This document shows positions 13,998-35,580 of a DNA stretch of 38,202 bases, piece after piece (position 1 is the first letter of the stretch; the number at the start of each line of letters is the position of its first letter). The position numbers were made by a program, and so were the translations under genes. The notes beneath the pieces are model-generated. The model was not told the origin of the DNA. It was given only the letters and a program-made list of their open reading frames with translations, and did no database searches. Source of the DNA: Verrucomicrobiota bacterium (lineage in GTDB: Bacteria > Verrucomicrobiota > Verrucomicrobiia > Limisphaerales > SIBE01). The stretch covers positions 1-38,202 of the forward strand of contig VHCZ01000031.1 in assembly GCA_016871535.1 (NCBI GenBank). Direction: 5' to 3'.

Positions 13998-14225
13998 CAG
14001 TCTCTCGATGAGGTTCTTCGCTGAACAACGAAGAACAATTTTTGCAAAGACAAACGCAATTCCGGAGTAGCAGCCAGGCCATCAAAAAATGCATGGTCGC
14101 GCCAGGTCATGAGAGCGCTGGCGCAAACGATGCAAGGCAATCGACAATCGTTCGAGTCCGAAAAGGTCCATTGTTTGATAGGCATCAAAGCTGGCGGCTT
14201 GCTTCGACGTTACCTTCCTCCACTG

Positions 14226-15797
14226 ATGAGAATTGATACGTTGCTAGTCTGCCTCGCGGTGAGCGGGGTTTCTGCGACCGCCGCCGCCGCCCAGGGGAAC
14301 CGCTCCCCGGCGCCGGCCAACGGCGCTGATTTGAATCCGACACTCCGGTCTGGCCAGGCGGTTTACGACCAGCATTGCGCGGCTTGCCACAACGCGAACG
14401 GCGATGGCCACGGGCCGGCCGCGGCCTGGCTCTTCCCCAAGCCCCGGAATTTCAGCGCCGGTCTGTTCAAAATTCAATCGACACCGGCTGGCTCCCTTCC
14501 ATCCGATGAAGACCTCTACGAAAGCATTACCCGCGGACTCGGAGGAAGCTCGATGCCCGGCTTCACGTATCTCAGCGAGAAAGAGCGCCGGGATGTCGTG
14601 CAGTATGTGAAGCACCTCACGGCTGAGATTGGGCCGGACGGCAAGCGAATCAACAAATTCGAGCAAGCCAAAGCGCAAGATCAAATTGCGCCGTCGATTC
14701 CAGTGCCGCCCGAGCCGCCGCTGACCTTGGATTCGATTACGCGGGGTCAAGAGTTCTTCACGCGTTTGCAGTGCGCCGCCTGTCACGGGGAAACCGGCGC
14801 CGGAGACGGGCCGTCGGCCCCCACATTGAAGGATCGCGAAGGCATCCCGGTCATCCCTCGGGACTTCAACACCGGAGCCTTTCGCGGCGGGGCCGCGGGG
14901 CGCGACCTTTATTTGCGCATCGCCGTCGGGCTGGCGGGCACGCCGATGCTCGGATTCCCGGACGACGTGCTCAAACCGGACGAGCGCTGGGATCTCGTTC
15001 ATTACGTTCAGTCGCTGCGCCGGAAAGACATGGAGGTAAACGACATTCTGGCGCCGGAGAACGGGTTGATCAAGGTGTCGAAATCGAGGAAGGCGTTGCC
15101 GCTCGATCCAACCCACCCGGATTGGGAACGAGTCGAGGCGGCGCGTGTGCCGTTGAATCCGCTCTGGCCCGAACCCGACCCGATCCCCGCCGTAGCCGTC
15201 CGCACGCTCCACGACGGCAAGCAAATCGCCATCTTGCTCCAGTGGCGGGATGCGATTGCCAATGGCGCGCCAGTGCGCGTGCAGGACTTCCAAGATGCCG
15301 CCGCGCTGCAATTCTCGCTGAACGGGACAACGCCATTTCTCGGAATGGGCGACCCGAAAAATCCAGTCAACGTCTGGCAATGGAAAGCCGGCTGGCAGGC
15401 GGAAATCGACGGCCAACGCGAAGACGTCCACACCGAATACGCCTCGATGCACGTCGATGTCTATCCAGAAACCACGGCGCTTTACCGCACCGCCGAAGCC
15501 GCGGGAAACCTTCTCGCCCGCATTCATTCTTCGCCCATTGAAGATGCCACCGCATGGGGCTTCGGGACCATGAAATCTCAATCGCTCAAAGGCCAAAACG
15601 TCCGGGGCAAAGGCGTGTGGCGTGACGGATTCTGGAACGTGCTCTGCGTCCGCGAACTGAAGTCCAAAGAGGCGGAGGACGTGAAATTCACGCCGGGCAA
15701 ACCCGTGCCCGTCGCGTTCGCCATCTGGAATGGCCAGCAGCGCGACCGGAACGGGCGGAAGGTGATCAGCAACTGGTTCCAACTCGTTCTGGAATGA
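14226..15797 (+). CDS. Dihaem cytochrome c fused to ethylbenzene-dehydrogenase-gamma-like haem b domain (NxrC-like)
   Basis: A 523-aa exported protein (signal peptide MRIDTLLVCLAVSGVSATAAAA). Two cytochrome c domains follow, with CAACH at 51-55 (QHCAACHNANGDGHGP) and CAACH at 183-187 (QCAACHGETGAGDGP). From about 320 to the end is a domain of the ethylbenzene dehydrogenase gamma/NxrC type, with the signature FLGMGDPKNPVNVWQWKAG; Met374 is the candidate haem b ligand. In type II DMSO-reductase-family enzymes this subunit takes electrons to or from the beta subunit. Here it is fused to two c haems, so it could pass electrons directly to soluble or outer-membrane cytochromes. It is the first gene before the molybdopterin subunit. 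The ATG at 14226 was chosen because it starts a clean signal peptide. Confidence 0.88.
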   Translation: MRIDTLLVCLAVSGVSATAAAAQGNRSPAPANGADLNPTLRSGQAVYDQHCAACHNANGDGHGPAAAWLFPKPRNFSAGLFKIQSTPAGSLPSDEDLYESITRGLGGSSMPGFTYLSEKERRDVVQYVKHLTAEIGPDGKRINKFEQAKAQDQIAPSIPVPPEPPLTLDSITRGQEFFTRLQCAACHGETGAGDGPSAPTLKDREGIPVIPRDFNTGAFRGGAAGRDLYLRIAVGLAGTPMLGFPDDVLKPDERWDLVHYVQSLRRKDMEVNDILAPENGLIKVSKSRKALPLDPTHPDWERVEAARVPLNPLWPEPDPIPAVAVRTLHDGKQIAILLQWRDAIANGAPVRVQDFQDAAALQFSLNGTTPFLGMGDPKNPVNVWQWKAGWQAEIDGQREDVHTEYASMHVDVYPETTALYRTAEAAGNLLARIHSSPIEDATAWGFGTMKSQSLKGQNVRGKGVWRDGFWNVLCVRELKSKEAEDVKFTPGKPVPVAFAIWNGQQRDRNGRKVISNWFQLVLE

Positions 15798-16191
15798 CGA
15801 AGGCCGAGATCTGAATGACCAAGCCCGAAATCCGAATGACGAAGGAATTCCGAATGCCTCAATCTGAAATCAGCCCGGTGCCAACGAGGTATGGCCCTTC
15901 GGGATTTGGATTTAGTCGTTCTTTCGTCATTCGTCGTTGGACATTAATTCAGTCGCTGGGGCCGTGGGCGATCATGAAAGCAACCGGACGGTGTCCGCTC
16001 CATTTCCCCTCACCCTGGCCGTCTCCCCAAGGAGAGGGAATCACGGTTCGCACCGCGGGCCAACCGCGACGCGGCATTGGCGCCCAGCGCGGAACCCACT
16101 CCCTCTCCCCAAGGGAGAGGAACGGGGTGCGGGGGAAGGTGACGATCGAACCACCGGCGCGGCTCCACTGAAAACAGCGAAGAACCACGTT
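15798..16191. repeat. Repeat-filled gap between the NxrC-like gene and the alpha subunit
   Basis: 394 bp without a gene. The first half (about 15811-15945) is an imperfect long palindrome with GAATGACCAAGCCCGAAAT and GAATGACGAAGGAATTCCG on one side and GTCGTTCTTTCGTCATTCG on the other. The second half (16006-16140) is a CCCCTCACCCTGGCC...GGAGAGGAACGGGGTG element with paired CTCTCCCC/GGGAGAGG blocks. Neither looks like a terminator with a T tract, so read-through into the alpha subunit is possible. Confidence 0.75.
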
Positions 16192-19100
16192 ATGACATCC
16201 GACAACCTCTCACGCCGCGATTTTATCCAACGAAGCGGCCTCCTCAGCGCCGGCCTTGCCGCGGCGCAAATGCTGCCTCTCCGATTCTTGCAAGCCCAGG
16301 AAGCCGTGGCGAATCCCCTGGCGCATTATCCGAATCGCGGCTGGGAAAAGCTCTACCGCGATCAGTACGCTTACGACCGCTCCTTCTCCTGGGTCTGCGC
16401 TCCGAACGACACGCACAACTGCCGCATCACAGCCCACGTTCGCAACAGCGTGATCATCCGCATGGGCGAGGAATTTGACGTCGGCAAATACGCCGATCTC
16501 TACGGCAACAAAGCGTCGTGGAACTGGGGCAACCGCCATTGCGCCAAAGGCTACACGTTCCATCGCGTGCTCTACGGTCCGTACCGGCTGAAGCATCCCA
16601 TCGTGCGCCGCGGGTGGAAACGCTGGGCCGACGATGGCTTCCCGTATTTGACCAAGGAACTCCGCGCGAAATACAAATTTGATTCCAGGGGAACAGACAC
16701 GTTCGACCGGGTTTCCTGGGATGACGCCTTCACGCTCATCGCCAAAGGTCTGAAAGCGATTGCGGTCCGTTACAGCGGAACCGAGGGCGGCAAATTCCTC
16801 GCCGAGCAAGGCTATCCGCCGGAAATGATTGAGGAGATGGGCGGCGCCGGCACGCGCACGATCAAAATGCGCGGCGGCATGGGATTGCTCGGCGTCCTGG
16901 GCAAATACGGCATGTACCGGCTGAACAATTCGCTCGCGTTGCTCGATGTTCACGTGCGCGGCGTCAAGCCGGAGCAGGCCAAAGCGGGACGCAATTGGTC
17001 GAATTACACCTGGCACGGCGACCAGGCGCCCGGCCAGCCGTGGGTTCACGGGCTGCAGAATTCCGAATCGGATTTCAACGACCTCCGTTCTTCCAAGCTG
17101 ATCATCATGAACGGCAAGAACCTGGTCGAAAACAAAATCACCGACGCGCACTGGTTCATCGAGTGCATGGAGCGCGGCGCCAAGATCGTCGTGATCGCTC
17201 CCGAATACGGCGCGCCCTCGACCAAGTGCGATTATTGGATTCCCGTGCGGCCTTCAACCGACGCCGCGCTGTGGCTGGGCGTGACGCGATTGATGATGGA
17301 CAAGGGTTGGTACGACGAAACGTTCGTCAAGCAGTTCACCGACTTTCCGTTGTTAGTCCGATCCGACAATCTCAAGCGCCTGCGAGCTGCGGAAATCATC
17401 CCGAATTACAAAAGCGCGTTGCCAGCCGACGGCGCGAGCAAAAAGGTGCAGGGCCTGACGGACGAACAGCACGCCAAACTGGGCGACTTTATAGTCTGGG
17501 ACGCGAAGTCGAATTCGCCCAAAGCCATTCACCGCGATCTCGTCGGCCAGAAGCTCTCCGAGTCCGGCATCGACCCCGTGCTCGATGGCACGTGGAAGGT
17601 GAAACTGGTGGACGGCACTGAGGTGGAAGTGAAGACCGCCTGGACGCTCTACCGCGTTCACCTCAAAGACTACGATCTGGATGCGGTGGCGGAAATCACG
17701 GCCGCGCCGAAGGAACTCATCGAGCAACTCGCCAAAGATATCGCGACCATCAAGCCGTGCTCGATCCACCAGGGCGAAGGGATCAACCATTGGTTCCACG
17801 CGACTGAGGCCAATCGCGCCGCGTATCTACCGGTGATGCTCACGGGCAACATTGGGAAACCGGGCGCGGGCTGCCACGGCTGGGCCGGCAATTACAAAGC
17901 CGCCTTGTTCCAGGGATCGAAACTTACCGGCCCGGGCTTCAAAGGCTGGGTGGCGGAGGATCCGTTCCATCCGAACCTCGATCCGAAAGCGCACGGGCGC
18001 GATGTCGAGGCGCACGCTTACACGAAAGACGAAGAACCGGCGTACTGGAATCACGGCGACATTCCGCTCATCGTCAACACGCCGAAGGAAGGCCGCAAAG
18101 TGTTCACAGGCAAGACGCACATGCCGACGCCGACGAAGGCGATCCTGTTCACCAACGTGAACTTGATCAACAACGCCAAGTGGGCCTACGGCGTCATCAA
18201 AAACGTGAACCCAAGGATTGAACTCATCGTCTCGGTGGACATTCAGGCCACGGCCACGGTCGAGTATTCCGACTTCGCGCTGCCGGCCAATTCCTGGCTC
18301 GAATTCCAAGATTTGGAAATCACGGCGTCGTGCTCGAATCCGTTCCTGCAAATCTGGAAAGGCGGCATCAAACCGATCTACGACACCAAGGATGATCTCA
18401 CGATCCTGGCAGGCATTGCGAACGGCCTGGCCAAGGTGACCGGCGACAAACGCTTCCGCGACTACTTCAAGTTCGAGCACGAAGGCAAGCGGAGCATTTA
18501 CATCCAGCGTTTGCTCGACACCTGCACGACGACCGCGGGTTACAAGCTCGGCGATATCATGGCCGGCAAGTATGGGCCGCCGGGCGGATGTCTCATGAAC
18601 TTCCGGACTTACCCGCGCATTCCGTTTTACGAGCAGGTTCATGACAGTTGGCCGTTCTACACGGACACGGGCCGGCTCCATTCTTACAGCGACGATCCCA
18701 CCGCGATCAGTTGCGGAGAAAACTTCATCGTTCACCGCGAAGGGCCTGAAGCCACGCCGTACCTGCCCAATGTCATCGTCAGCTCCAACCCGTGGGTGCG
18801 GCCAAATGATTACGGAATTCCGCTCACGGCCGAGCACTGGGATGAACGCACGGTGCGCAACGTCAAATTGCCCTGGGCCGAGGTCAAGAATACGAAAAAC
18901 TTTCTCTGGCGCCGCGGTTTCCAGTTTTATTGCCTCACGCCCAAGTCGCGGCACAGCGTCCATTCTTCCTGGGCCAACGTGGATTGGCACTTGATCTGGA
19001 ACTCGAACTTCGGCGACCCGTATCGCATCGACAAGCGCTTGCCCAACGTCAGCGAGCATCAAGTGCACATGAATCCGCAAGCCGCGCGCGATCTCGGACT

Positions 19101-19662
19101 GAAGGATGGCGACTACGTGTATGTGGATGCGAACCCCGCGGATCGCCCGTATCTTGGCGCGACGCCTTCCGATCCGTTTTACAAGGTGAGCCGCCTGATG
19201 CTGCGGGTGACCTTCAACTCGGCCTATCCGTATCATGTCATTATGATGAAGCACGGAACGTTCATCGCGACCGAGAAGACCGTGCGTGCGCAGCAGACGC
19301 GGCCGGATGGGTTGTCGCTGACGGAGACGGGCTACATCTCGAACTTCCGGTTTGGTTCCCAACAATCCATCAACCGGAACTGGCACATGCCGATGCACCA
19401 GACCGACACGCTCTTCCACAAAACCAAAGCGTTCATGGGATTTATTTTTGGCGGTGAAGCGGACAATCACGCGATCAACACCGTGCCCAAGGAATGTCTG
19501 GTCCGCGTCACCAAAGCCGAAGACGGCGGACTGGGCGGCAAAGGCCCATGGAAGCCTGGCACGGAGGGCTTGTCGCCCGATGCGGAGAACGACGTGATGA
19601 AGAAGTATTTGGCCGGGGGCTACGGCATTGCCGGCGCGCCCACCAAAGCCGGATTCGAATAG
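16192..19662 (+). CDS. nxrA: Molybdopterin oxidoreductase alpha subunit, nitrite oxidoreductase (NXR) type
   Basis: Catalytic subunit of 1156 aa, the length expected for NxrA of Nitrospira/anammox type. It begins with a Tat signal (LSRRDFIQR, RR at 8-9), so it folds with cofactor before export. The N-terminal [4Fe-4S] site appears as Cys69-x3-Asp73-x3-Cys77...Cys117 (WVCAPNDTHNC, RHCAKG), the variant seen in NXR-type proteins rather than His-x3-Cys-x3-Cys of NarG. YTWHGDQAPG places Asp277 as the likely molybdenum ligand, which puts it in the type II DMSO reductase family. Blocks such as YGPYRLKHPIVRRGWKRW and SKLIIMNGKNLVENKI resemble NxrA (recalled family knowledge). Nitrite oxidation to nitrate, nitrate reduction, or another substrate cannot be told apart by sequence alone. 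Genes for a chaperone and a beta subunit follow. An in-frame extension upstream to 15937 is repeat DNA, not gene. Confidence 0.9.
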   Translation: MTSDNLSRRDFIQRSGLLSAGLAAAQMLPLRFLQAQEAVANPLAHYPNRGWEKLYRDQYAYDRSFSWVCAPNDTHNCRITAHVRNSVIIRMGEEFDVGKYADLYGNKASWNWGNRHCAKGYTFHRVLYGPYRLKHPIVRRGWKRWADDGFPYLTKELRAKYKFDSRGTDTFDRVSWDDAFTLIAKGLKAIAVRYSGTEGGKFLAEQGYPPEMIEEMGGAGTRTIKMRGGMGLLGVLGKYGMYRLNNSLALLDVHVRGVKPEQAKAGRNWSNYTWHGDQAPGQPWVHGLQNSESDFNDLRSSKLIIMNGKNLVENKITDAHWFIECMERGAKIVVIAPEYGAPSTKCDYWIPVRPSTDAALWLGVTRLMMDKGWYDETFVKQFTDFPLLVRSDNLKRLRAAEIIPNYKSALPADGASKKVQGLTDEQHAKLGDFIVWDAKSNSPKAIHRDLVGQKLSESGIDPVLDGTWKVKLVDGTEVEVKTAWTLYRVHLKDYDLDAVAEITAAPKELIEQLAKDIATIKPCSIHQGEGINHWFHATEANRAAYLPVMLTGNIGKPGAGCHGWAGNYKAALFQGSKLTGPGFKGWVAEDPFHPNLDPKAHGRDVEAHAYTKDEEPAYWNHGDIPLIVNTPKEGRKVFTGKTHMPTPTKAILFTNVNLINNAKWAYGVIKNVNPRIELIVSVDIQATATVEYSDFALPANSWLEFQDLEITASCSNPFLQIWKGGIKPIYDTKDDLTILAGIANGLAKVTGDKRFRDYFKFEHEGKRSIYIQRLLDTCTTTAGYKLGDIMAGKYGPPGGCLMNFRTYPRIPFYEQVHDSWPFYTDTGRLHSYSDDPTAISCGENFIVHREGPEATPYLPNVIVSSNPWVRPNDYGIPLTAEHWDERTVRNVKLPWAEVKNTKNFLWRRGFQFYCLTPKSRHSVHSSWANVDWHLIWNSNFGDPYRIDKRLPNVSEHQVHMNPQAARDLGLKDGDYVYVDANPADRPYLGATPSDPFYKVSRLMLRVTFNSAYPYHVIMMKHGTFIATEKTVRAQQTRPDGLSLTETGYISNFRFGSQQSINRNWHMPMHQTDTLFHKTKAFMGFIFGGEADNHAINTVPKECLVRVTKAEDGGLGGKGPWKPGTEGLSPDAENDVMKKYLAGGYGIAGAPTKAGFE

Positions 19663-19881: not shown

Positions 19882-20403
19882 ATGCCCAAAGACGAATTTG
19901 ATCCGGAAGATCCGATGGAACTTTGCGGCGTCGGTCTGGTCACGGACGAAGACACAACCGACGCGATGGCAGAGTGCTTTATCGAGGAGTTCATGCGCCT
20001 GGGTTACAACCCCAAGCAGATCCTCGCGTTGTTCCGGAACCCTTATTACATCGGCGTGAACATGGTGCTGCAGAATCTCGGCGAACCGTTCGTGCGCGAG
20101 CGGATCGCCGAGGTGTTTGCGCGTTGGGGGAAACCGGTCACCTGGCAGGCTGGAGCCGCGATCCCCCTCACCCCGGCCCTCTCCCAAGGGGAGGAGAACC
20201 CTTTGGCGTGCGGGTTCAAATCGGAAGCCCTGGCCACTTCGCCTGCGATGGAATCAATGTTCCCTCTCCATGAGGGAGAGGGCCAGGGTGAGGCGAAACG
20301 GCGCGAACTTTCATCGGAGGCCTCCGAACGGAACCAGGCGATCCCAGTTGATCCGAACATGACGGACCCGATGGGGGGCGCGATTCCTCGGTTGGATAAC
20401 TAG
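19882..20403 (+). CDS. Small conserved NXR-linked protein with an in-frame repeat insertion
   Basis: A 173-aa soluble protein. Residues 1-93 (DPMELCGVGLVTDEDTTDAM, ...FIEEFMRLGYNPKQILALFR, NPYYIGVNMVLQNLGEPFVR) look like a conserved acidic helical domain; small proteins of similar appearance are found next to molybdoenzyme genes, but I cannot assign a function. From about residue 94 the frame passes through a CCCCTCACCCCGGCC repeat (20164-20293), giving LTPALSQGEENP and FPLHEGEGQGE, then returns to a possible native tail (VDPNMTDPMGGAIPRLDN). It lies between alpha and beta subunit genes, 52 bp before the latter, so it may serve in assembly of the enzyme. Confidence 0.65.
   Translation: MPKDEFDPEDPMELCGVGLVTDEDTTDAMAECFIEEFMRLGYNPKQILALFRNPYYIGVNMVLQNLGEPFVRERIAEVFARWGKPVTWQAGAAIPLTPALSQGEENPLACGFKSEALATSPAMESMFPLHEGEGQGEAKRRELSSEASERNQAIPVDPNMTDPMGGAIPRLDN
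20164..20293. repeat. CCCTCACCCC-type palindromic element inside a coding frame
   Basis: A 130-bp element starting CCCCTCACCCCGGCCCTCTC and ending GAGAGGGCCAGGGTGAGG, so its ends are inverted copies of each other. It is read in frame as part of the small NXR-linked protein. Confidence 0.8.
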
Positions 20404-20455: not shown

Positions 20456-21727
20456 ATGAGCAAGGTCTTAAACTGGCAACTGGGCCGCGACATGGAGTAT
20501 CCCTATGACGCGGCGTTCCCGAATTCCCAATTCGCGTTTGTCTTCAACTTGAACCGCTGCATCGGCTGCCAGAGTTGCACCATGGCGTGCAAGTCCACGT
20601 GGACGTTCTCCAAGGGGCAGGAAAACATGTGGTGGAACAACGTCGAGACCAAGCCCTACGGCGGTTATCCGCACCACTGGGACGTCAAGCTCCTCGATCT
20701 GCTCGATCAAGCCAATCCCGGAGGCCAAACCTGGAACAGCCAACCGAAGGACCTCAAAGCTCCCTACGGCCAATTCAAAGGCAAAACCATTTTTGAAGTC
20801 GCGCAAACGAACGTCAGCCCGGAAGGCGCCCAGCGCGCCCTGGGTTATCTGCCGACGGATGAAGAATGGTCCGCGCCGAATCGTTACGAGGACAATCCCA
20901 CCGGCGGCCAAAAAGGGCAGAAGGGACAGTATTTCACGGGCGGCGAGGCCTTGCCGCAGCACAAGACGTGGTTCTTCTATCTCGCGCGCATCTGCAATCA
21001 CTGCACATATCCCGCCTGCCTGGCCGCTTGTCCCCGCAACGCCATCTATAAACGGCCCGAAGACGGCATCGTCCTGATCGATCAGGAACGCTGCCGCGGT
21101 TACCGGAAATGCATGGAGGCTTGTCCGTACAAGAAAAGTTTCTATCGAGGCACGACGCGGACGAGCGAGAAATGCATCGGATGTTTCCCGCGCGTCGAAG
21201 GCCGCGATCCCGATGGCGGCGGCTTGCCGATGCAAACGCGTTGCATGGCGGCGTGCGTCGGGCACATTCGCTTGCAGGGCCTGGTGCAAATGAATTCGGA
21301 CGGCACGTGGAAAGAAGACCGCTATCACCCGCTTTACTATCTGGTGCACGTCGCGAAGGTCGCGCTGCCGCTTTACCCGCAATTCGGCACCGAACCGAAC
21401 GGCTACTATATTCCGCCGCGCTGGGTGCCTCGCGCGTACTTGCGGCAAATGTTCGGGCCGGGCGCCGACGCCGCCGTCGAGAAATACGCCAATCCCGATC
21501 GCGAACTGCTGGCGGTTCTGCAACTGTTCGGCAAGGACGCCCGGATGTGTTTCCGCTACGAGATCAAGGAAGGTCCGAAGGTGTTCGAGACCGAAATTCG
21601 CGGCAAGAAGTTCGAACTCTACAACGACACCATCATCGGCTACGGCAAGGACGGGAGGAAGATCATCGAAACGACCGTCGAGGAACCGTTGCACGTCCGA
21701 GGAGCCCAGCATGCCAACTCCATCTGA
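20456..21727 (+). CDS. nxrB: Iron-sulfur beta subunit, NXR/NarH type
   Basis: Electron-transfer subunit of 423 aa. Four cluster-binding groups are visible: Cys35/38/41/45 (CIGCQSCTMAC), Cys180/183/188/192 (CNHCTYPACLAAC), Cys213/219/223 with Tyr216 in the fourth place (CRGYRKCMEAC, the NarH-type [3Fe-4S] pattern, where NarH has Trp), and Cys240/243/263/267 (CIGC...CMAAC). Blocks such as NNVETKPYGG, RPEDGIVLIDQERCRGY, YPQFGTEPNGYYIPPRWVPR and YLRQMFGPG closely resemble Nitrospira/anammox NxrB as I recall it. It has no signal peptide, so it should be exported in a complex with the Tat-signalled alpha subunit. The TorD gene starts inside its last 17 bases. Confidence 0.93.
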   Translation: MSKVLNWQLGRDMEYPYDAAFPNSQFAFVFNLNRCIGCQSCTMACKSTWTFSKGQENMWWNNVETKPYGGYPHHWDVKLLDLLDQANPGGQTWNSQPKDLKAPYGQFKGKTIFEVAQTNVSPEGAQRALGYLPTDEEWSAPNRYEDNPTGGQKGQKGQYFTGGEALPQHKTWFFYLARICNHCTYPACLAACPRNAIYKRPEDGIVLIDQERCRGYRKCMEACPYKKSFYRGTTRTSEKCIGCFPRVEGRDPDGGGLPMQTRCMAACVGHIRLQGLVQMNSDGTWKEDRYHPLYYLVHVAKVALPLYPQFGTEPNGYYIPPRWVPRAYLRQMFGPGADAAVEKYANPDRELLAVLQLFGKDARMCFRYEIKEGPKVFETEIRGKKFELYNDTIIGYGKDGRKIIETTVEEPLHVRGAQHANSI

Positions 21728-23084
21728 AGAATTGCGGAGTGCGGAGTGCGGAGTGCGGAATGAGAGTCCGCGCTCGGTGTTCGGGAACTTCAAAACCAAC
21801 CGCGCGCCGGGTCCCCTCACGCCGGTCCACTCCAGTGGAGAATCTCCAAGGCTTTCCCCTCCCCACGAAACTGATTCAACCGCGGATTACGCGGATAACA
21901 CGGATAAAATCGCTTCTTCATCCGCGAAATCCGCGGAATCCGTGGTTAAAAAACCGATTCAAGCGTTCAATGTGCGAAACGGTTCGGAGAATTCTCTCCG
22001 TGAGGGGGAGGGGGAACACGGTGTTGGCATTGGTCTGCAGGTCGAGACACTGCAAAATTCCATCGACCGCGCATTGGCGCGGTCCTTCCTTTACCGCATT
22101 TTGGCGAAGGCGTACGAGTATCCGACGGAGGAAGGCTGGAACTGGCTCGCGCAGCCCACCGTCCAGGGCGCCTTCTGGACTTCGGTTCTGGTTTTGACCT
22201 GTGATCCATCGTTGCCGGTAACTTCTCATGAAGCGCAAGGTGGGGCGAGCCTGTCCTCAGCGAGGCGAACGGGCCGTGTTCCAGGCTCGTCGAGCGGCTC
22301 GCCGGGACGGACTCGCCCTACCGTGTCCAGGGGAGCGCCCGCGCCCGCGCGTGTTTCCGCCGGCGCGTTGCCAGCGGATGCGGTGTCCGCACCAAGGGCA
22401 GAATGCTGCCTGCCGGCGGTGCCGGACGGCGGCGAGGCGCCGCAAACCGCACGCGGGGCGCGTGCGCTCCTCGAAAGCTCTCTGAGGAACCGGGCCGGCC
22501 AATTACTCCGGCATCTGCAACGCCGGAACTTCGAGCCGTTCCTCCAGGATTACATCGCGGTCTTTGGCCACGCGGCTCGCGGTTCGTGCCCGTTGAATGA
22601 AATCGAATATGGGGATCTGAAAGCCGATCCGCTCTTCCAACCTCATCGCCTGGCGGATCTGGCGGCCTACTACCGCGCGTTCGGCCTCGAAATCACCGAG
22701 GACGCGACGGAGCGTCCGGACCACATCTGCATTGAGCTGGAATTCATGTCGGTGCTCGCCGCCAAGGAAGCCTACGCTCTCGAACACCAACTGGACGACC
22801 TCGAGTTGCCCGTGTGCCGCGACGCTCAGAAGGGTTTTCTTCGCGAGCATCTCGGCCGTTGGACCCCCGCTTTCGCGCGGCGGCTCGCGCGAGTCGCTGG
22901 AGAAGGCGTGCTCGGAGCTTTGGCGGAATTCACCCTTGAATTCATCGAGGAGGAATGCCGGCGGCTTGGCGTCGCCGCCGGAAGCGAAGATCTCCTGCTT
23001 CGTCCGGTGGATGAAGCGGACGAGAGCCTTTGCGCAAGCTGCGGAATCCGCAGTCTGCCGCCCGGAGCCACGGCGGTTACGTAG
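21711..23084 (+). CDS. TorD/NarJ-type molybdoenzyme chaperone, enlarged by repeat insertions
   Basis: A chaperone of the TorD family, which binds the Tat signal and holds the apo-enzyme for cofactor loading. The frame has 457 codons, against the usual 200-280. Native-looking parts are residues 113-165 (LQNSIDRALARSFLYRILAK) and about 250-445 (FLQDYIAVFGHAARGSCPLN, EIEYGDLKADPLFQ, CIELEFMSVLAAKEA). Residues about 8-110 come from GCGGAGTGCGGAGTGCGG and CCGCGGATTACGCGG repeat DNA, and about 178-206 from a GGTAGGGCGAG-family palindrome (22239-22322). Neither breaks the frame. The start ATG overlaps the beta subunit by 17 nt, as expected for coupling; a later internal start would drop the first insertion but I see none that is clearly better. 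Whether the enlarged protein folds is uncertain. Confidence 0.8.
   Translation: MPTPSEELRSAECGVRNESPRSVFGNFKTNRAPGPLTPVHSSGESPRLSPPHETDSTADYADNTDKIASSSAKSAESVVKKPIQAFNVRNGSENSLREGEGEHGVGIGLQVETLQNSIDRALARSFLYRILAKAYEYPTEEGWNWLAQPTVQGAFWTSVLVLTCDPSLPVTSHEAQGGASLSSARRTGRVPGSSSGSPGRTRPTVSRGAPAPARVSAGALPADAVSAPRAECCLPAVPDGGEAPQTARGARALLESSLRNRAGQLLRHLQRRNFEPFLQDYIAVFGHAARGSCPLNEIEYGDLKADPLFQPHRLADLAAYYRAFGLEITEDATERPDHICIELEFMSVLAAKEAYALEHQLDDLELPVCRDAQKGFLREHLGRWTPAFARRLARVAGEGVLGALAEFTLEFIEEECRRLGVAAGSEDLLLRPVDEADESLCASCGIRSLPPGATAVT
21732..21762. repeat. Short tandem repeat GCGGAGTGCGGAGT
   Basis: About four tandem copies of a GCGGAGT-like 8-9-mer (GCGGAGTGCGGAGTGCGGA) close to the 5-prime end of the TorD frame. 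Confidence 0.55.
21878..21947. repeat. Dispersed CCGCGGATTACGCGG palindromic repeat
   Basis: A 70-bp segment with AACCGCGGATTACGCGGATA on the left and AATCCGCGGAATCCGTGGTT on the right, related by imperfect inversion. It is read in frame within the TorD gene. A weaker relative lies near 5790. Confidence 0.65.
22239..22322. repeat. GGTAGGGCGAG-family palindrome, copy 2, inside the TorD gene
   Basis: 84 bp (28 codons) starting GGTGGGGCGAGCCTGTCCTC and ending CGGACTCGCCCTACC. The length is a multiple of three and no stop is created, so the host frame is kept. Confidence 0.85.
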
Positions 23085-23133
23085 TTGCCTTAGTGGTCGT
23101 GGACATAAATACGATGACGTTCGCGGCAAGGGA

Positions 23134-23215
23134 TTTTGCGGCCAGACAAGGCGCGAGCGACGAGCATACCCATCCGCGGTCTGTAAGGAGCGAGCCACGA
23201 AGTCTGGCCGCAAAA
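23134..23215. repeat. Variable-stem hairpin with conserved core, copy a
   Basis: Perfect 14-bp stem TTTTGCGGCCAGAC/GTCTGGCCGCAAAA enclosing a 54-nt core (AAGGCGCGAGCGACGAGCAT... to GGAGCGAGCCACGAA). The core matches those at 31509-31589, 31616-31702 (inverted), 37932-38015 and more loosely 38101-38202. It lies in the 275-bp gap (23085-23359) between the TorD gene and the HExxH protein gene. Confidence 0.8.
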
Positions 23216-23359
23216 GAACTGCCGCCCTCCGGGTTGCGCCCCATTTGGCCTGTGGCTTTGACCAAGTCCGAACATCTGGCGGTTGTGCTCCATCGCCATT
23301 CGAGTTTCGTGCTTTCGTATTCTTTCGACATTCGACGTTAGGAATCGGTCATTTCCGCC

Positions 23360-24292
23360 ATGAGGCTTCTCTTTGACGACGAATTGATCGAGAGCGTGGT
23401 CTTCCTGTGCGTGAGCGGGAAGCGCGCCGGAATTCCCGCGCTACAGATTCGCCGCTATTACCGCGAACGCGAGAGGGCCTACGCGATGTCGGATCCGGAC
23501 GAGCGGAATGCGGGTTTCGCGCGCCTTCACGCCGCGTGGTTTCACGAATGGGATCTCGACCGAGGGTTGGCTGCAGTCGCTGCGGATTTCCCGCTGTTGG
23601 AGCCATCCCTCCAGGCGATGGCGTTTCGCAAAGCGCGCAACAAATTCGAAGAGGGCGCCGATCTCTACGTGAACGCGAGCGGCGAACGCCATGGCGTTGT
23701 GGCGCTGCGAGCCGAGCGCTTCGCGCGCGACGCGGCGTTGCGGGCCTTTCTCAATCACGAACTGATGCACGTCAGCGATATGGTCGATCCGTCTTTTGGT
23801 TATGCGCGCGATGCGAGCCAGTTTGGCGAAACGGCCTCGCAGAAGCGTCTCGTTCAAGAACGCTACCGGCTGCTCTGGGACGTCACCATTGACGGCCGGC
23901 TCACGGGCCTGGGTCGCGCGACGGAGGCAGCGATGGAACGGAGGCGCGATGAATTCGAGCGCGCCTACAACTTCCTCGACGCCGATCAACGCCGCGCGCT
24001 TTTCGAGTCATTGTGGACCGGCGCTTCTCCGCGTCACCCGGCGTTGCTGGACCTGGCGCGCGATCCACGCGGCTTGAGCGGTTCGCATCGGCGGGCGCCG
24101 GGCGCGCCGTGCCCTTTGTGCGGTTTCGCGGCATTTGATTGGATTGAAGGGCCCGCGCTGAAAGAGGATACTGTGTTCGCGATCCGGAAAGAATTTCCCG
24201 CGTGGACTCTTGAGGAAAGTGTATGTCACCGTTGCGCGGAGATTTACGAAGCGCCGACCGGCCTGGAACTGCCGGCCACGGTCTGTCTCTGA
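23360..24292 (+). CDS. Uncharacterised protein with HExxH motif and C-terminal zinc ribbon
   Basis: A 310-aa soluble protein of unknown function. His133-Glu-Leu-Met-His137 (LNHELMHVSD) is a zinc-metallopeptidase-type HExxH, within a helical region (85-215) rich in Arg and Glu. The C-terminus (about 250-300) carries CPLCGF and CHRCAE pairs, likely a zinc ribbon. No signal peptide or membrane segment is present, so it is cytoplasmic. Its place between the TorD chaperone and the outer-membrane conduit genes suggests a role in maturation or quality control of the exported enzyme, but this is inference from position only. I did not recognise a named family. The start ATG is the first in frame after a stretch of repeat DNA. 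Confidence 0.75.
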   Translation: MRLLFDDELIESVVFLCVSGKRAGIPALQIRRYYRERERAYAMSDPDERNAGFARLHAAWFHEWDLDRGLAAVAADFPLLEPSLQAMAFRKARNKFEEGADLYVNASGERHGVVALRAERFARDAALRAFLNHELMHVSDMVDPSFGYARDASQFGETASQKRLVQERYRLLWDVTIDGRLTGLGRATEAAMERRRDEFERAYNFLDADQRRALFESLWTGASPRHPALLDLARDPRGLSGSHRRAPGAPCPLCGFAAFDWIEGPALKEDTVFAIRKEFPAWTLEESVCHRCAEIYEAPTGLELPATVCL

Positions 24293-24477: not shown

Positions 24478-25296
24478 ATGAACTCCGAAGTGAACTCTGT
24501 TCCCCCGAAAAAAAGAACCGGCCTGGCCCGATTCGGCCCGCCCAGGCGGCTGGCTGTTCTGGGCACGCTGTTGGCCGCCTCCATCCTGGTTTCGTGCGTG
24601 AGTGTCACGCGCGTCGTCGTGGCGCCGCCCAATATCCCCGGGGCCACGTTCGTCGGCTCGGAAACTTGTGCGCAGTGTCACGAGAACATTACGAAGGGAT
24701 TTCACGCCGCGACCCACGCGCGGTTGAAGGCGCCCGGCCAAAATGCGGCCAACGTGGGCTGCGAATCGTGCCACGGCCCCGGCAGCCTGCACAGCGAATC
24801 GGGCGGCGCGCACCACACGATCATCAACCCGCGGAAATCCCCGGACGCGTGTTTTCAGTGCCATCTGGACAAGCGGGGCGAGTTCAACCTGCCGCACCAT
24901 CACCCGGTCGTGGAGGGCAAGATCAGTTGCGGGGATTGCCACGATCCGCACAAAGGCGACGCCGTCATCGGCGGAGGCACGGCGCTGGCCACGGAGTTCG
25001 ACACGTGCGGTCGTTGTCATACGGCGCAACGCGGCCCGTTCGTTTTCGAGCACGAAGCCGTTCGCGAAGGCTGCACGACTTGCCACGCAGTCCACGGTTC
25101 GGTGAATCAGAGAATGCTCAAGGAACGGAATTCGATGCTGTGCATGAAATGCCATTTCCAGCAGCAGACGACGGCCGGCCGCATTGTCATCGGCGGGCAG
25201 GATCATACCACGCGGCTGCCTCGGGGCAGTTGCTGGTCGGCGGGCTGTCACGAAGCCGTGCACGGCTCACAGATTGGTTCGTCTCTCAGATTTTAA
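24478..25296 (+). CDS. Multihaem cytochrome c, MtrA/DmsE/PioA family, lipoprotein-like
   Basis: A 272-aa cytochrome. The N-terminus has a lipobox-like LVSC (Cys40) after a hydrophobic stretch (RLAVLGTLLAASILVSC), so it is probably a lipoprotein. Seven CxxCH sites are at Cys64, 95, 125, 151, 177, 199 and 222, and an eighth at 252 has the unusual spacing CWSAGCH (Cx4CH). The spacing, together with HHPVVEGKISCGDCH, CGRCHTAQRGPF, CTTCHAVHG and a final CH..VHGS, is that of the DmsE/MtrA/PioA family, which normally has ten haems and crosses the outer membrane inside an MtrB-type barrel. The next gene encodes such a barrel, 34 bp on. It likely moves electrons across the outer membrane in either direction. 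The gap before it (24293-24477) shows no gene. Confidence 0.9.
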   Translation: MNSEVNSVPPKKRTGLARFGPPRRLAVLGTLLAASILVSCVSVTRVVVAPPNIPGATFVGSETCAQCHENITKGFHAATHARLKAPGQNAANVGCESCHGPGSLHSESGGAHHTIINPRKSPDACFQCHLDKRGEFNLPHHHPVVEGKISCGDCHDPHKGDAVIGGGTALATEFDTCGRCHTAQRGPFVFEHEAVREGCTTCHAVHGSVNQRMLKERNSMLCMKCHFQQQTTAGRIVIGGQDHTTRLPRGSCWSAGCHEAVHGSQIGSSLRF

Positions 25297-25330
25297 CGGC
25301 CGCAAACTCACTAACCCAGTAGGAGCATCG

Positions 25331-27499
25331 ATGAACGCACTAGATCGGCGAGCAAACAGACGGCAGCAATTCGCTCTGGTCACTTCCGCGCTGTTCAGCG
25401 CCGGATTGATCAATTGGCCCGCCCAGGCGGCCGACCCGGGAGCCTCCGCCGCCGCGGCCGGAGACAAAAAACCCGCGCTGGAAAAGAAAGCGGACGACAC
25501 GGCCGCGGACTACCGCAACTGGTTCGACGTCTCGGCCGGCGGCGTGTTGCTGCAAGGCGACAAAGCGGCTTACCAGCGCCGATACGGGCTGCCTGGCAGC
25601 GCTTTTGGCGGCGTGGAAAGTTTTCATTACGAGCAGGACGTGGGCAAGAAGGGTCTCTTCTCCATCGAGGGGCGAGGCATCTTCGACACCGATGACTATT
25701 CGCTGAAACTCGAGTTGTCCAATCCGGAGATCGGCTATCTTCGCGCCGGATACAAGGAGTTCCGGTCTTGGTTCGACGGCAGCGGCGGGTACTTTCCCAG
25801 GAACGGCCAATGGTTCTCGATCTACGATGAAGAGTTGACGCTAGACCGTGGCGAAGCGTGGTTCGAAGGCGGCCTCACGCTGCCGGACAAACCGGAACTC
25901 ACGTTCCGATACAGCCATCAATTCCGGGATGGACGCAAGGACTCGACGATTTGGGGCGACTCCAACACCACCGGCGGAGCGGGCGCGCGCGGCATTGTCC
26001 CGGCGTTTAGAGACCTTGACGAGGAGCGGGACATTTTTGCGGCCGACGTGAAGCACAAGATCGGCAACACTGACCTCGGCGCCGGCTTGCGCTACGAATT
26101 CTCCAAGAACGACAATTCGCTCAATATTCGGCGGCGCCCCGGTGAAGCCACCGGCGATCGCGTCCTCACCCACCGCGAAGGAGTGGACACCGACCTGTTC
26201 AACGCCCACGCCTTTACAGAGACTCGGCTGAACGAGAAAGTCCTCGTCACCACCGGTTATTCGTTCACGACTCTCGATACGGATATCTCCGGCAGCCGCA
26301 TTTACGGCGCGGACTACGATCCGATCTACGACCCGCTCTTTGCGCGGCGGCAGCAGCGGGACGAAGGTTTCTTCGGTTTGACCGGCGGCGCGCAAGTCAA
26401 ACAACACGTGGGCAACTTCAATCTGATGCTCACGCCCTGGAGCGGTTGGGCCATTGTGCCGTCGGTGCGCGTGGAGAAACAGGACCTGGACGGAGTGGCG
26501 GAATTCACCGAAACGAACGTGGGCGCAGGCCCGGCGTTCGCGGCGGTCTCCGAGGGTTTGCTGAACTTGCGCGAGCGCGGATTTCTGGATGTATCGCAGA
26601 GCCTGGAAGCGCGTTACACCGGCCTCACGAACTGGACCTTTTATGCGCGAGCCGAGTTGCTCGAAGGCGAAGGCGATTTGATGGAGCGCGAACTGGAAGC
26701 GACCACAGGCGTGGTGGATCTGGTCCGGGACACGGACTCGACCCGTTTTACCCAGAAATACGTCGCCGGCGCCAACTGGTATCCGATCCGGCGCCTCAAT
26801 ATGGGGGCGCAGTACTACCATAAGATCCGGGAGAACAGTTACGACCACCTCCTCGATACGCCGGCTACCAATGCGCCGCCGTCCTCCAATCGCTATCCGG
26901 CGTTTTTCCGGGACCAGAATTTCGAGACGGACGACGTGAACGTGCGGGTGACAATGCGTCCGCTGGACAATGTGACTCTGGTCAGCCGATACGATTTCCA
27001 GCTTTCGACCATCGAGACCATCGGAGATTACCTGGCGCCGGTCCAGAGCGCCGAGGCGCGCAGCCATATTCTGAGCCAAAGCGTGTCGTGGACTCCGATC
27101 CCCCGGCTCTACTTGCAAGCGAGCCTCAATTATGTTTGGGACAAGACCCAATCGCCCACAGCCCGGTCCGTGCCCGGCACGAACCTGGTGTCGAACGTGG
27201 ACAACAGTTACTGGAATGCAACAGCCGCGGCGGGCTACGCGCTGTCGGACAAGACCGATTTGCAGGCGCAGTACTTCTATTATCGCGCGGACAACTACGC
27301 GGATGACTCCCAATTCACCCAGCCTTACGGCGTCGGCGCTGAAGAGCACGGCGTCACCGCTGCGATCATCCATCGCATTCGGAAGAACCTCGTCAGCACG
27401 GTGAAATACGGCTACTTCCAGAATCGGGACGAAACCTCCGGCGGCCACAACGACTACGAAGCTCACCTGGTTTACTCGAGCTTGCGGTACTTGTTCTAA
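25331..27499 (+). CDS. MtrB/PioB-type outer-membrane beta-barrel
   Basis: A 722-aa outer-membrane protein that would sheath the MtrA/PioA-type cytochrome encoded just upstream. The start ATG at 25331 follows AGGAG with good spacing, and the signal peptide ends near WPAQAA (the frame opens further upstream, overlapping the cytochrome gene, without a better start). The mature part has many alternating aromatic/polar strands (YRNWFDVSAGGVLLQ, YLRAGYKEFRSWFDGSGGYF, LEARYTGLTNWTFYARAEL), and the last residue is Phe (SSLRYLF), as needed for BAM-assisted insertion. Family assignment rests on the gene pair, the size and the strand pattern. No Cys-x2-Cys motif near the N-terminus is seen, unlike Shewanella MtrB. 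No surface decahaem (MtrC/OmcA-type) gene is in the window. Confidence 0.85.
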   Translation: MNALDRRANRRQQFALVTSALFSAGLINWPAQAADPGASAAAAGDKKPALEKKADDTAADYRNWFDVSAGGVLLQGDKAAYQRRYGLPGSAFGGVESFHYEQDVGKKGLFSIEGRGIFDTDDYSLKLELSNPEIGYLRAGYKEFRSWFDGSGGYFPRNGQWFSIYDEELTLDRGEAWFEGGLTLPDKPELTFRYSHQFRDGRKDSTIWGDSNTTGGAGARGIVPAFRDLDEERDIFAADVKHKIGNTDLGAGLRYEFSKNDNSLNIRRRPGEATGDRVLTHREGVDTDLFNAHAFTETRLNEKVLVTTGYSFTTLDTDISGSRIYGADYDPIYDPLFARRQQRDEGFFGLTGGAQVKQHVGNFNLMLTPWSGWAIVPSVRVEKQDLDGVAEFTETNVGAGPAFAAVSEGLLNLRERGFLDVSQSLEARYTGLTNWTFYARAELLEGEGDLMERELEATTGVVDLVRDTDSTRFTQKYVAGANWYPIRRLNMGAQYYHKIRENSYDHLLDTPATNAPPSSNRYPAFFRDQNFETDDVNVRVTMRPLDNVTLVSRYDFQLSTIETIGDYLAPVQSAEARSHILSQSVSWTPIPRLYLQASLNYVWDKTQSPTARSVPGTNLVSNVDNSYWNATAAAGYALSDKTDLQAQYFYYRADNYADDSQFTQPYGVGAEEHGVTAAIIHRIRKNLVSTVKYGYFQNRDETSGGHNDYEAHLVYSSLRYLF

Positions 27500-29931: not shown

Positions 29932-31413
29932 ATGACCGATTCCTCTGACAATCCACGCCACCCGCGCCTGGTGCGAAACTGGCTGAGCCTGGCGGGATTT
30001 ATTCTCGCGATTGGGAGCTTCTTCGCTTTCGTGCTGCTGTTCGCCATCGACCTGATGGCCGAGCACCGCAATCCCTACATGGGCATCCTGACCTACGTGG
30101 TTGCGCCCGGCTTTCTGATCTCGGGGATGGCGCTCGTGGCCGCGGGCGTGATCCTGCACCGGTGGCAGCTTCATAAGGCGTTGCCCGGCGCGCCGGCTCC
30201 GCGCATCACGATTGATCTGGCCCGCCCGCAGGACAAGAAACTTCTCGCGGGATTTCTGGTTGGCACGCCGATTTTCCTGCTCCTGACCGCATTCGGCAGC
30301 CATCGCACGTATCAGGTGAGCGAGTCGGTCCAATTCTGCGGCCAGGCGTGCCACACGCCGATGAAACCGGAGTTCGTCACCTACCAGAACTCGCCGCACG
30401 CGCGGGTGTCTTGCGTGGAATGCCACGTCGGGCCTGGCGCGGCATGGTATTTCAAATCGAAGCTGAACGGCGTCCGCATGCTCGCCTCCACCGTGGCCAA
30501 CAATTTCGAGCGGCCCATCAAAACGCCGATCAAGAATCTGCGCCCGGCCCAGGAGACGTGCGAACATTGTCATTGGCCGGAGAAATTCGTCGGCAACGTG
30601 GAACGCACTTACTCGCACTTTCTCGCCGACGAAACCAACACGCCCTTCACTGTCCGGATGTTGCTCAACGTCGGGGGAGGCGAAACCCGCTCCGGACGCG
30701 CCGGCGGCATCCACTGGCACATGAACCTCGGAAACAAGGTCGAGTACTTCGCCAGCGACGAACAACGGCAGGTGATTCCCTGGGTCCGGTTCACCGATCC
30801 GCAAGGGGTCGTGACGGAATACCGCACGAAGGATTTTCAAGGCGAACCCAAGCCGTTGGAGATTCGCCGTCTGGACTGCATGGATTGCCACAACCGGCCC
30901 GCCCACCATTTTCGCTCGCCGAATGAAGCGGTCGATCTCGCGATGTCCGTGGGACGAATCGATCCCCGTTTGCCGTGGGTGAAATCGAACTCTGTCGAAG
31001 TGTTGACGCGGAACTACGCGACCGAGTCCGAGGCGCTCCAGACAATCGCCGCCGTGTTGCGCGCCGCCTACACGGACTATTCCAAAATCGACTCGCTGGT
31101 GGGCGAGGTGCAGGACATTTTTCGCAACAACTTCTTCCCGGAGATGAAAGCCAACTGGCGCGTGTATCCGGACAACATCAGCCACAAGAACTGGGCCGGG
31201 TGTTTCCGGTGCCATGACGGGCGGCACAAGACGGCGGACGGGAAACGCTCCATCAAAGCGAGCGATTGCAACTCTTGCCACATCATCCTGGCCCAGGGCA
31301 GCGGTCCGCAACTCGAGACGCTGAACCCCAAGGGCCTTCCCTTCTTCCACATCGACGCCGAGTACTCCGACTTCGCCTGCGCAGAGTGCCACACCGGCGG
31401 ACTGGTCAAGTGA
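29932..31413 (+). CDS. Seven-haem NapC/NirT-like membrane cytochrome c, paralogue 1
   Basis: A 493-aa protein with three hydrophobic segments (about 17-42, 50-75 and 105-121) and then a periplasmic haem domain. Haem sites: CGQACH (Cx3CH, Cys136), CVECH (161), CEHCH (210), and CMDCH, CFRCH, CNSCH and CAECH further on. The block ESVQFCGQACHTPMKPEFVT followed by SPHARVSCVECH is NapC/NirT-like, where the first haem takes a Met ligand and touches quinol. Three N-terminal helices and seven haems differ from the single helix and four haems of NapC. It would link the quinone pool to periplasmic cytochromes. The second copy (36411-37892) has the same length and the same haem order. Confidence 0.9.
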   Translation: MTDSSDNPRHPRLVRNWLSLAGFILAIGSFFAFVLLFAIDLMAEHRNPYMGILTYVVAPGFLISGMALVAAGVILHRWQLHKALPGAPAPRITIDLARPQDKKLLAGFLVGTPIFLLLTAFGSHRTYQVSESVQFCGQACHTPMKPEFVTYQNSPHARVSCVECHVGPGAAWYFKSKLNGVRMLASTVANNFERPIKTPIKNLRPAQETCEHCHWPEKFVGNVERTYSHFLADETNTPFTVRMLLNVGGGETRSGRAGGIHWHMNLGNKVEYFASDEQRQVIPWVRFTDPQGVVTEYRTKDFQGEPKPLEIRRLDCMDCHNRPAHHFRSPNEAVDLAMSVGRIDPRLPWVKSNSVEVLTRNYATESEALQTIAAVLRAAYTDYSKIDSLVGEVQDIFRNNFFPEMKANWRVYPDNISHKNWAGCFRCHDGRHKTADGKRSIKASDCNSCHIILAQGSGPQLETLNPKGLPFFHIDAEYSDFACAECHTGGLVK

Positions 31414-31508
31414 ATCTCCTTCTTTGTTTCGGATTTGGGATTTCGGATTTCGCAATTTGGCCTTAAGGGTCCGTGCAAAAATAACTTCGGATTTTGGCGG
31501 GAGCGCCA

Positions 31509-31589
31509 CCTGGCCTGCGGCGAGGAGTGAGCGAGGGAGCATCCCCGCAGCGGTCTGTGACCGAGCGAACGACGAAGCCGCAGGCCAGG
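31509..31589. repeat. Variable-stem hairpin with conserved core, copy b
   Basis: Perfect 13-bp stem CCTGGCCTGCGGC/GCCGCAGGCCAGG enclosing a 55-nt core (GAGGAGTGAGCGAGGGAGCA... to GAGCGAACGACGAA). Lies inside the MITE-like element. Confidence 0.8.
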
Positions 31590-31615
31590 CGCCGCCCCGC
31601 CCCGAAGGGCTGGGG

Positions 31616-31702
31616 CTGTTTGGCTCTCTGGCGTTGTTGCTCGCTCCTTTCAGACCGCAGCGGGTCTGCTCGTCGCTCGCGCCTAGCCAGAGAGCCAAAC
31701 AG
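31616..31702. repeat. Variable-stem hairpin with conserved core, copy c (inverted)
   Basis: Perfect 16-bp stem CTGTTTGGCTCTCTGG/CCAGAGAGCCAAACAG. On the minus strand its core reads CTAGGCGCGAGCGACGAGCA... to AGGAGCGAGCAACAACG, very close to copy a, while the stem is unrelated. Confidence 0.8.
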
Positions 31703-31892
31703 CCTCCAGCAAAATCCGAAGTTATTTTTGCACGGACCCTAAGGCCAGGTATCCAAAAGAAGGAGATCAATTGCCAAGATTCGAGCAGCAGTCGGACGCG
31801 TCCGCCCGTAGGTTCGCGGTGTTGGGGCCAGACCAATATTGGCCATGGCCAGGACAAGAATTCTGAAAGCACATAACCATTCCGAGAGATTC

Positions 31893-32225
31893 ATGAAAAG
31901 ACTGATATTGCTAACGGGCGCTCTGCTCTTCGCCACCGTGATGACCGCGCGCGGCGCCGACGTGAAAGAGGTCTGGGACAAGAACTGCGCTTCCTGCCAT
32001 GGCAAAGACGGCAAAGGCGAAACCAAAGCGGGCAAGAAAGCCGGCGCGAAAGATCTGACTGATGCCAAGTACCAGGCGACTTTCACCGACGACCGGATGG
32101 TCAAGCAAATCAAGGAGGGCATGAAAGACAAGAACGGCAAAGAGCTGATGAAGCCTTTCGCGGACAAATTGTCCGACGAGGAGATCAAACAAATCGTCGC
32201 GTATGTCCGCGCGTTCAAGAAGTGA
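31893..32225 (+). CDS. Small periplasmic monohaem cytochrome c
   Basis: A 110-aa cytochrome from ATG 31893 (GAGAG upstream; the frame is open further 5-prime without a better start). Signal peptide MKRLILLTGALLFATVMTARGA, haem motif CASCH (NCASCHGKDGKGETKAGKK), likely axial Met in ELMKPF, and C-terminal helix EEIKQIVAYVRAF. It lies 25 bp before another member of the same family, so the pair is a tandem duplication that has since diverged. Confidence 0.92.
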   Translation: MKRLILLTGALLFATVMTARGADVKEVWDKNCASCHGKDGKGETKAGKKAGAKDLTDAKYQATFTDDRMVKQIKEGMKDKNGKELMKPFADKLSDEEIKQIVAYVRAFKK

Positions 32226-32250
32226 ACCTCAATACTGAAACTGGATACGT

Positions 32251-32583
32251 ATGAAAAAGATCATGTGGTTAAGCCTGGGCCTTCTCTGCGCGACCGCGGT
32301 TTCGACCCTCGCGGCGGATGTCAAAGAGAACTGGGACAAGCAATGCGCCAAGTGCCACGGCCCTGACGGCAAAGGCGACACCAAAATGGGCAAGAAATCC
32401 GGAGTTAAAGACTACAGCGATGCGAAGGTCCTCGCGGAATTGAAGGATGACCTCGCCTTCAAGCACGTCAAAGAAGGCATGAAGGAAGGCGACAAAACGA
32501 AAATGAAACCGTACGGGGACGTGCTGAGCGACACCGAGATCAAAGCGCTCGTCGCGTATATTCGAGAGTTTGGCAAGAAGTAA
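32251..32583 (+). CDS. Small periplasmic monohaem cytochrome c
   Basis: A 110-aa cytochrome: signal peptide MKKIMWLSLGLLCATAVSTLAA, haem motif CAKCH (QCAKCHGPDGKGDTKMGKK), candidate axial Met in TKMKPYGD, C-terminal helix TEIKALVAYIREF. It is in the same transcript as the gene 25 bp upstream. A clear intrinsic terminator follows 24 bp after the stop, so this two-gene unit ends here. Confidence 0.93.
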   Translation: MKKIMWLSLGLLCATAVSTLAADVKENWDKQCAKCHGPDGKGDTKMGKKSGVKDYSDAKVLAELKDDLAFKHVKEGMKEGDKTKMKPYGDVLSDTEIKALVAYIREFGKK

Positions 32584-32607
32584 CTGCGTTCCTCTGCCAT
32601 GCACCGA

Positions 32608-32632
32608 GGCGGGCCTTGCGCCCGCCTTTTTT
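32608..32632 (+). terminator. Intrinsic terminator after the cytochrome pair
   Basis: GGCGGGC-CTTGC-GCCCGCC stem-loop (7-bp perfect stem) followed by TTTTTT. It is the only textbook rho-independent terminator I found in the window. The rest of the gap to 32847 contains TTTAACCCATTCAACGGTTT-type repeats and no gene. Confidence 0.88.
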
Positions 32633-34235: not shown

Positions 34236-34236
34236 T

Positions 34237-35460: not shown

Positions 35461-35580
35461 CGCTGCTCAAGAAATGAAGACAAATGGCCAAATCCGGGAG
35501 AGCGAGGGACGTCCCGGAAATCGATATTGACCGCGCAAACAGCCCGACTCAGGGCCAAAACGAAAATCACTTCACTGAAA

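Follow-up and report, generated by a model that had tools for sequence, protein, structure and literature searches.

A HExxH/Zinc-Ribbon Protein Gene Associated with TorD and Kuenenia-Type NXR Genes in an Order of Verrucomicrobiota: A Possible NXR Maturation Factor

Introduction

Exported molybdoenzymes must receive their cofactor before Tat export, a step whose known dedicated components are chaperones of the TorD type. In a stretch of 38,202 nucleotides from a Verrucomicrobiota bacterium of the order Limisphaerales (contig VHCZ01000031.1; hereafter, the window), a gene for a protein with a HExxH motif lies in a cluster of genes for a nitrite oxidoreductase (NXR). Is this gene a regular partner of NXR, and what might its product do there? 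If the role considered below is true, the step of cofactor insertion would gain a new component, a lineage-specific protein with a protease-type motif coded between the genes of the chaperone and the cofactor, and it would matter for expressing this NXR in another host.

The HExxH Gene and Its Motifs

The features of the window are collected in Table 1. The dN/dS ratio of the HExxH gene is 0.158 between the window and locus L002 (78% identical) and 0.162 between the window and genome G388, whereas the two shifted frames of the window–L002 DNA give 1.6 and 1.8, which indicates that the frame is coding and under purifying selection; the antisense frame that was read contains internal stops. By composition, about 0.018 HExxH motifs are expected in a protein of 310 residues, and the motif and the cysteine pairs recur among homologues with identities as low as 44%. 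The original prediction of a 310-residue protein with HELMH and two cysteine pairs is thus borne out by the reading frame, the dN/dS ratios, and the homologues. The hydrophobicity of the protein is weak even at its peak (Kyte-Doolittle 1.17 over a 19-residue stretch), and its place in the cell is presumably the cytoplasm.

Table 1. Coordinates of the HExxH gene, its motifs, and the neighbouring features in the window.
Feature	Coordinates	Strand	Remarks
NxrC-like subunit joining cytochrome c domains to a haem-b (EB_dh) domain	14109..15797	+	
NxrA, Tat-signal molybdenum subunit	15937..19662	+	Listed TTG ORF exceeds the protein; signal region codons 91-114
Conserved small ORF lying between nxrA and nxrB	19882..20403	+	About first 90 residues conserved in relatives
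NxrB, iron-sulphur subunit	20456..21727	+	TIGR03478 4e-75, under curated cut-off
TorD-type chaperone	21711..23084	+	Domain residues ~255-419, N-terminal extension
Spacer between TorD and HExxH genes	23085..23359	+	First ~174 bp (23085-23258) are a dispersed genomic repeat
HExxH/zinc-ribbon protein gene	23360..24292	+	310 aa; ATG at 23360, stop 24290-24292
HELMH, residues 133-137	23756..23770	+	Glu134, His137 27/27; His133 25/27
Asp178 of LWDVTIDGRL, putative third metal ligand	23891..23893	+	25/27
First Cys pair CPLC, residues 251-254	24110..24121	+	27/27
Second Cys pair CHRC (family: CxRC), residues 289-292	24224..24235	+	27/27
DmsE-type multihaem cytochrome of conduit	24478..25296	+	NF041028 3.6e-50, TIGR03508 3.2e-46, both under curated cut-offs
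Outer-membrane beta-barrel ORF of conduit	25184..27499	+	OMP_b-brl_3 1.7e-6, just over cut-off

Among the 27 homologues longer than 260 residues (numbered as in the window), Glu134, His137, Asp140, Cys251, Cys254, Cys289, and Cys292 are invariant, as are Trp173, Gly179, and Arg180. His133 is replaced by Ile in G389 and by Arg in G458, the HExxH motif being complete in the other 25, and Asp178 is replaced by Asn in G389 and by Glu in G469. The NxrA gene of G389 (locus L020) contains stops and its NxrB gene is split over two frames, so the loss of both candidate ligands in that genome fits a decaying system. G458 carries Arg133 and yet has an intact NXR, which does not fit decay as the explanation of ligand loss. 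The HExxH protein also diverges faster than NxrA, with mean distances among 19 loci of 0.444 and 0.161, respectively.

For the HExxH protein of the window, Pfam gave nothing at E up to 1 and NCBIfam a single model, a ribbon, at E 0.07, far under the cut-off of that model; no family of Pfam, NCBIfam, or PHROGs is matched credibly by the 25 members of alignment A3. The PDB gave no match up to E = 10 when searched with family profiles, and one match at E 1.1 with the single protein. Across Pfam, NCBIfam, the PDB, and profile comparison, no credible match to a known peptidase family was found; Peptidase_M76 was matched by one of the 25 members, at E 0.1. An unannotated PHROGs family matched by four of the 25 (best E 0.037) is regarded as chance. 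The TorD/NarJ models PF02613 and TIGR03482 have no match in the family, PF02613 being met by the neighbouring gene. A homology to DUF2201_N, considered for its W-x4-D pattern, was rejected at a profile probability of 0.4%, with two of 20 column-shuffled controls scoring higher; one M48 protein, compared without shuffled controls, gave a probability of 0.8%. AlphaFold2 models built on two-sequence alignments reached a mean pLDDT of 48.4 for the full length and 45.5 for residues 95-242, poor values that are due to the small number of sequences in the alignments; with pLDDT <50, these models place short strands before the HExxH helix, which is compatible with a zincin fold and no more.

The NXR Cluster Around the Gene

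The molybdenum subunit of the window is, by its sequence, a true NxrA of the Kuenenia type: it matches 7b04_B, subunit A of the Kuenenia NXR, with 1734 bits over 1137 residues, and the next solved relatives score 194 bits and below. Its TAT_signal_seq match has E 0.0034 and 17.7 bits, against a cut-off of 16.7. The product of the first gene of the cluster matches EB_dh (5.9e-27) and Cytochrom_C (3.3e-25) in Pfam and, in the PDB, the NXR subunit C 7b04_C (2.5e-29) and 6h5l_B (5.1e-47), which we take to be a Kuenenia cytochrome. In other words, this gamma gene joins 6h5l_B-like cytochrome c domains to the haem-b domain of NxrC. The small protein coded between nxrA and nxrB matches no family of Pfam or NCBIfam at E up to 1. 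The TorD reading frame matches PF02613 at 4.6e-20, over the cut-off, and TIGR03482 at 1.4e-29, under the curated cut-off. The HExxH gene does lie between the chaperone and the outer-membrane conduit, as originally described: TorD precedes it, and the reading frames of the multihaem cytochrome and the barrel come after it.

The dispersed repeat in the spacer has at least 45 matches in its own genome, itself included (40 of the 189 first-look candidates were scored). Its insertion accounts for the gap of 275 nt between the TorD and HExxH genes in the window; their L002 counterparts have a 4-nt overlap. Inverted repeats also occur at 20159-20300, in the small intervening reading frame, and at 21880-21936, within the N-terminal portion of the TorD reading frame. 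The sequence around them is missing from relatives or aligns poorly with them, so both reading frames may carry repeat insertions.

Distribution and Co-occurrence with NxrA

A search of genome contigs (genome_contigs) returned one relative of the HExxH protein, L002, from a groundwater Verrucomicrobia MAG, and BLAST against 40 genomes, including the window's own, gave matches in nine. With the 8-row profile A1, the family was found in 35 of 320 genomes of the order. NxrA, counted at E up to 1e-100 with no more than two first-look candidates scored in each genome, is patchy: it occurs in 28 of the 320 genomes and 19 of 118 genera, and is 77-94% identical to that of the window over the matched parts (80-91% for the NxrB of the relatives in the order). 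Both the family and NxrA are present in 26 genomes (Fisher 2e-28, kinship ignored), and one more of the 35 family genomes has NxrB. The two genomes with NxrA only, G467 and G508, have it cut by contig ends.

Nine genomes have the family only. In G403 and G653, the matches cover about 55 residues of the ribbon and are regarded as chance; these two are counted in the 35. G443 carries the HExxH gene with NxrB and TorD on one 3-kb contig, and G406, G454, G459, and G480 have truncated copies. Neither NxrA nor NxrB was found in the remaining two: G453 (94% complete) has an intact copy with MOSC and MobA after it, and G502 (86% complete) has an open copy at a contig edge. Among the genomes without detected NxrA or NxrB, therefore, four of six copies are truncated, in contrast to none of 26 in the genomes with NxrA, contig-end cuts aside (Fisher 4e-4, kinship ignored; G403, G653, and G443 left out). 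The original prediction could have failed if homologues had been scattered independently of molybdoenzymes; instead, they track the NxrA/NxrB/TorD cluster, and the gene is a marker of Kuenenia-type NXR clusters in this order of Verrucomicrobiota.

In a phylum sample of 387 genomes, BLAST found the HExxH protein in the window's genome only, and the A3 profile added a ribbon match in G347 (E 9.6e-4, about 55 residues), regarded as chance. The same sample yielded NxrA from the window's genome and from G270, G349, and G267, the G349 copy being cut by a contig end. G270 and G267, from other Verrucomicrobiota lineages, have NxrA, NxrB, and TorD and lack the HExxH gene, so NXR presumably matures there without this protein. 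The proposal of a maturation or proofreading factor for NXR-type enzymes accordingly stands in its association with NxrA and TorD and is not supported in its generality. No relatives of the HExxH protein were found on plasmids or viral contigs; an NxrB search gave no match in viral contigs and 400 plasmid records, all at <60% identity.

Gene Order Across Loci

Gene order was read, with genes recognised by tblastn, in 34 loci of 33 genomes (G491 has two loci; G403 and G653 were left out). In 25 of them, the nearest gene recognised before the HExxH gene is TorD, and the upstream side of the G502 locus is unreadable. In the eight other loci (G406, G453, G454, G459, G463, G465, G480, and G483) TorD does not adjoin; in G463, G465, and G483, the HExxH gene lies away from TorD, with NxrA on another contig. 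The gap between the two genes is at most 5 nt, or they overlap, in 9 of 24 measured loci (the start in G443 being that of the alignment). The distance matrix of the HExxH protein over 19 loci correlates with those of TorD (rho 0.744), NxrB (0.726), NxrA (0.711), and NxrC (0.636); none of 2000 permutations reaches any of these values, kinship being ignored, and the loci are 19 of the 25 linked to TorD (G387, G389, G422, G443, G466, and G490 were not entered).

The downstream side is readable in 32 loci, since those of G443 and G483 end before it. Moco genes follow the HExxH gene in 13: MOSC in L018, L051, L054, L055, L063, L070, L072, L074, L077, L080, L081, and L082, within 0.4 kb in 11 loci and some 1.1 kb away in L055, with L065 having MoaD/MoaE instead. 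MobA comes after MOSC in 10 of these 12 loci (L070 holds its start only) and was not found after it in L018 and L054; in L074, L081, and L082, the island is longer and includes a TauE-like gene, MoaD, MoaE, MoeA, MoaC, and Mog. The other 19 readable loci, those of the window's genus included, have none of the searched-for Moco genes downstream.

Among the loci fetched, the only ones with conduit genes after the HExxH gene are the window, L014, and L002/L013 (a single genome); G490 has conduit genes nearby. The conduit thus accompanies the HExxH gene in the window's genus and G490 alone and is not a constant partner. The gene's supposed membership in a molybdoenzyme-conduit operon is upheld in its linkage to TorD and restricted, as regards the conduit, to these few genomes. 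G490 (L075) belongs to a different family; there, the HExxH and TorD genes stay adjacent, and the barrel and cytochrome genes of the conduit adjoin NXR, separating TorD from NxrB, with a second, distant molybdoenzyme-like gene next to them.

Possible Roles of the HExxH Protein

The co-occurrence and linkage with NxrA and TorD fit an accessory protein of NXR maturation, with G453 and the eight loci away from TorD as exceptions. On the grounds of position, co-occurrence, and decay, the HExxH protein probably serves NXR biogenesis as a dedicated factor; the correlated distance matrices and the TorD-HExxH pair kept in G490 also speak for it. Arg133 in G458, G453, the eight loci, G270 and G267, and a divergence faster than that of NxrA are points against this reading. 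Whether it is, more specifically, a cytoplasmic maturation and quality-control factor dedicated to NXR and working with TorD and the bis-MGD supply seems to us an evenly balanced matter. Coded between TorD and MOSC/MobA, the gene is well placed for the entry of bis-MGD into NxrA before Tat export. The protein would join TorD in acting on the NxrA Tat precursor as bis-MGD made by MobA goes in; the site formed by His133, Glu134, His137, and Asp178 would bind zinc in a zincin-like fold, and the C-terminal ribbon would bind a second zinc or dock on TorD or NxrA. Its likeliest act would be to clip or hold cofactor-free apo-NxrA, so that only filled enzyme is exported. A proteolytic step, proposed from the HExxH motif and Asp178, is rather doubtful, the lack of a credible sequence relation to a peptidase speaking against it. 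That a zincin metalloprotease would inspect the TorD-bound precursor, cut it if bis-MGD is missing, and so gate the Tat export of NXR is unlikely, and we know of no dedicated metalloprotease of molybdoenzyme biogenesis.

The same genomic evidence is shared by a non-catalytic co-chaperone or scaffold, with structural zinc at the His/Asp and Cys sites, that would bridge TorD, MobA/MOSC, and NxrA without cutting. The four cysteines are more constant than His133 and Asp178 (27 against 25 of 27 homologues), G458 retains an intact NXR despite Arg133, and a credible match to a peptidase family is lacking, all of which suit such a protein. On the other hand, a purely structural site would have no need of the catalytic-type Glu134, which is invariant, and the two lost ligands of G389 coincide with a broken NXR; we regard the scaffold as somewhat unlikely. 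A protein of Moco supply, acting with MOSC and MobA and not specific to NXR, is an improbable alternative, in which the CxxC pairs might be sulphur carriers, by analogy with FdhD. MOSC is next in 12 of the 32 readable loci, with MobA after it in 10 of the 12, and G453 retains HExxH, MOSC, and MobA genes where NXR was not found. Nevertheless, G454 and G480, which are without detected NXR, retain MOSC while their HExxH genes are truncated, which argues for a role tied to NXR and against a general Moco role, although G453 argues the opposite; moreover, the 19 readable loci without a Moco gene downstream include the window's genus, and 26 of 35 family genomes have NxrA and one more NxrB. Very improbable, in our view, is a passenger of the operon with an unrelated job, such as a regulatory or general stress metallopeptidase. 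Its fast divergence, its copies away from TorD in G463, G465, and G483, and its absence from both other NXR-TorD clusters read (G270 and G267) would suit a passenger, but the gene is retained in genomes that keep NXR even when it has moved, and four of six copies are truncated in genomes without detected NXR.

Relation to Known Systems

As Redelberger reportedly described in 2013, Lon protease acts as the quality control of a molybdoenzyme. The act would be the same as that proposed for the HExxH protein, the removal of immature molybdoenzyme; unlike Lon, a general ATP-dependent protease, the HExxH protein is small, tied to NXR, and provided with a zincin-type motif. The DUF2201_N and M48-type proteins share with it the HExxH motif and a later acidic residue. 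FdhE and FdhD, the accessory proteins of formate dehydrogenase, resemble it as molybdoenzyme accessories with CxxC motifs; to our knowledge, they have no HExxH, and the HExxH family differs from them in having no Pfam or NCBIfam match to either. The TorD/NarJ chaperones (with MobA) share with it neighbouring genes, a presumed cytoplasmic location, and the presumed client NxrA, and differ in that the HExxH motif and four-cysteine ribbon belong to the HExxH protein and the TorD domain is encoded separately next door. In the TorA system, according to a passage of PMC9103625, TorD interacts with MobA and the apo-enzyme and shields the latter from proteolysis.

A passage of PMC3578206, a paper on Nitrospina, lists “one putative zinc finger” protein among the genes that Kuenenia, Nitrospira, and Nitrospina share in their NXR clusters. 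Like the HExxH protein, it is of a zinc-binding type and conserved in NXR clusters with TorD, and it might belong to the same family; the passage names no HExxH. Passages of PMC8387239, PMC6606698, and PMC12342949 mention the NXR cluster or TorD and, in those parts, no HExxH protein. Among the matches listed, no title or abstract start concerns the HExxH protein, and no title is devoted to the Kuenenia-type NxrA of this order, whose NXR seems little described.

It should be mentioned that the window also contains, at 29932-37892, a paralogous pair: the reading frames at 29932 and 36171 match the same two places in L013, each place being 89% identical to one of them and 59-60% to the other. The 110-aa reading frame at 32251 matches L002 at three places and L013 at four.
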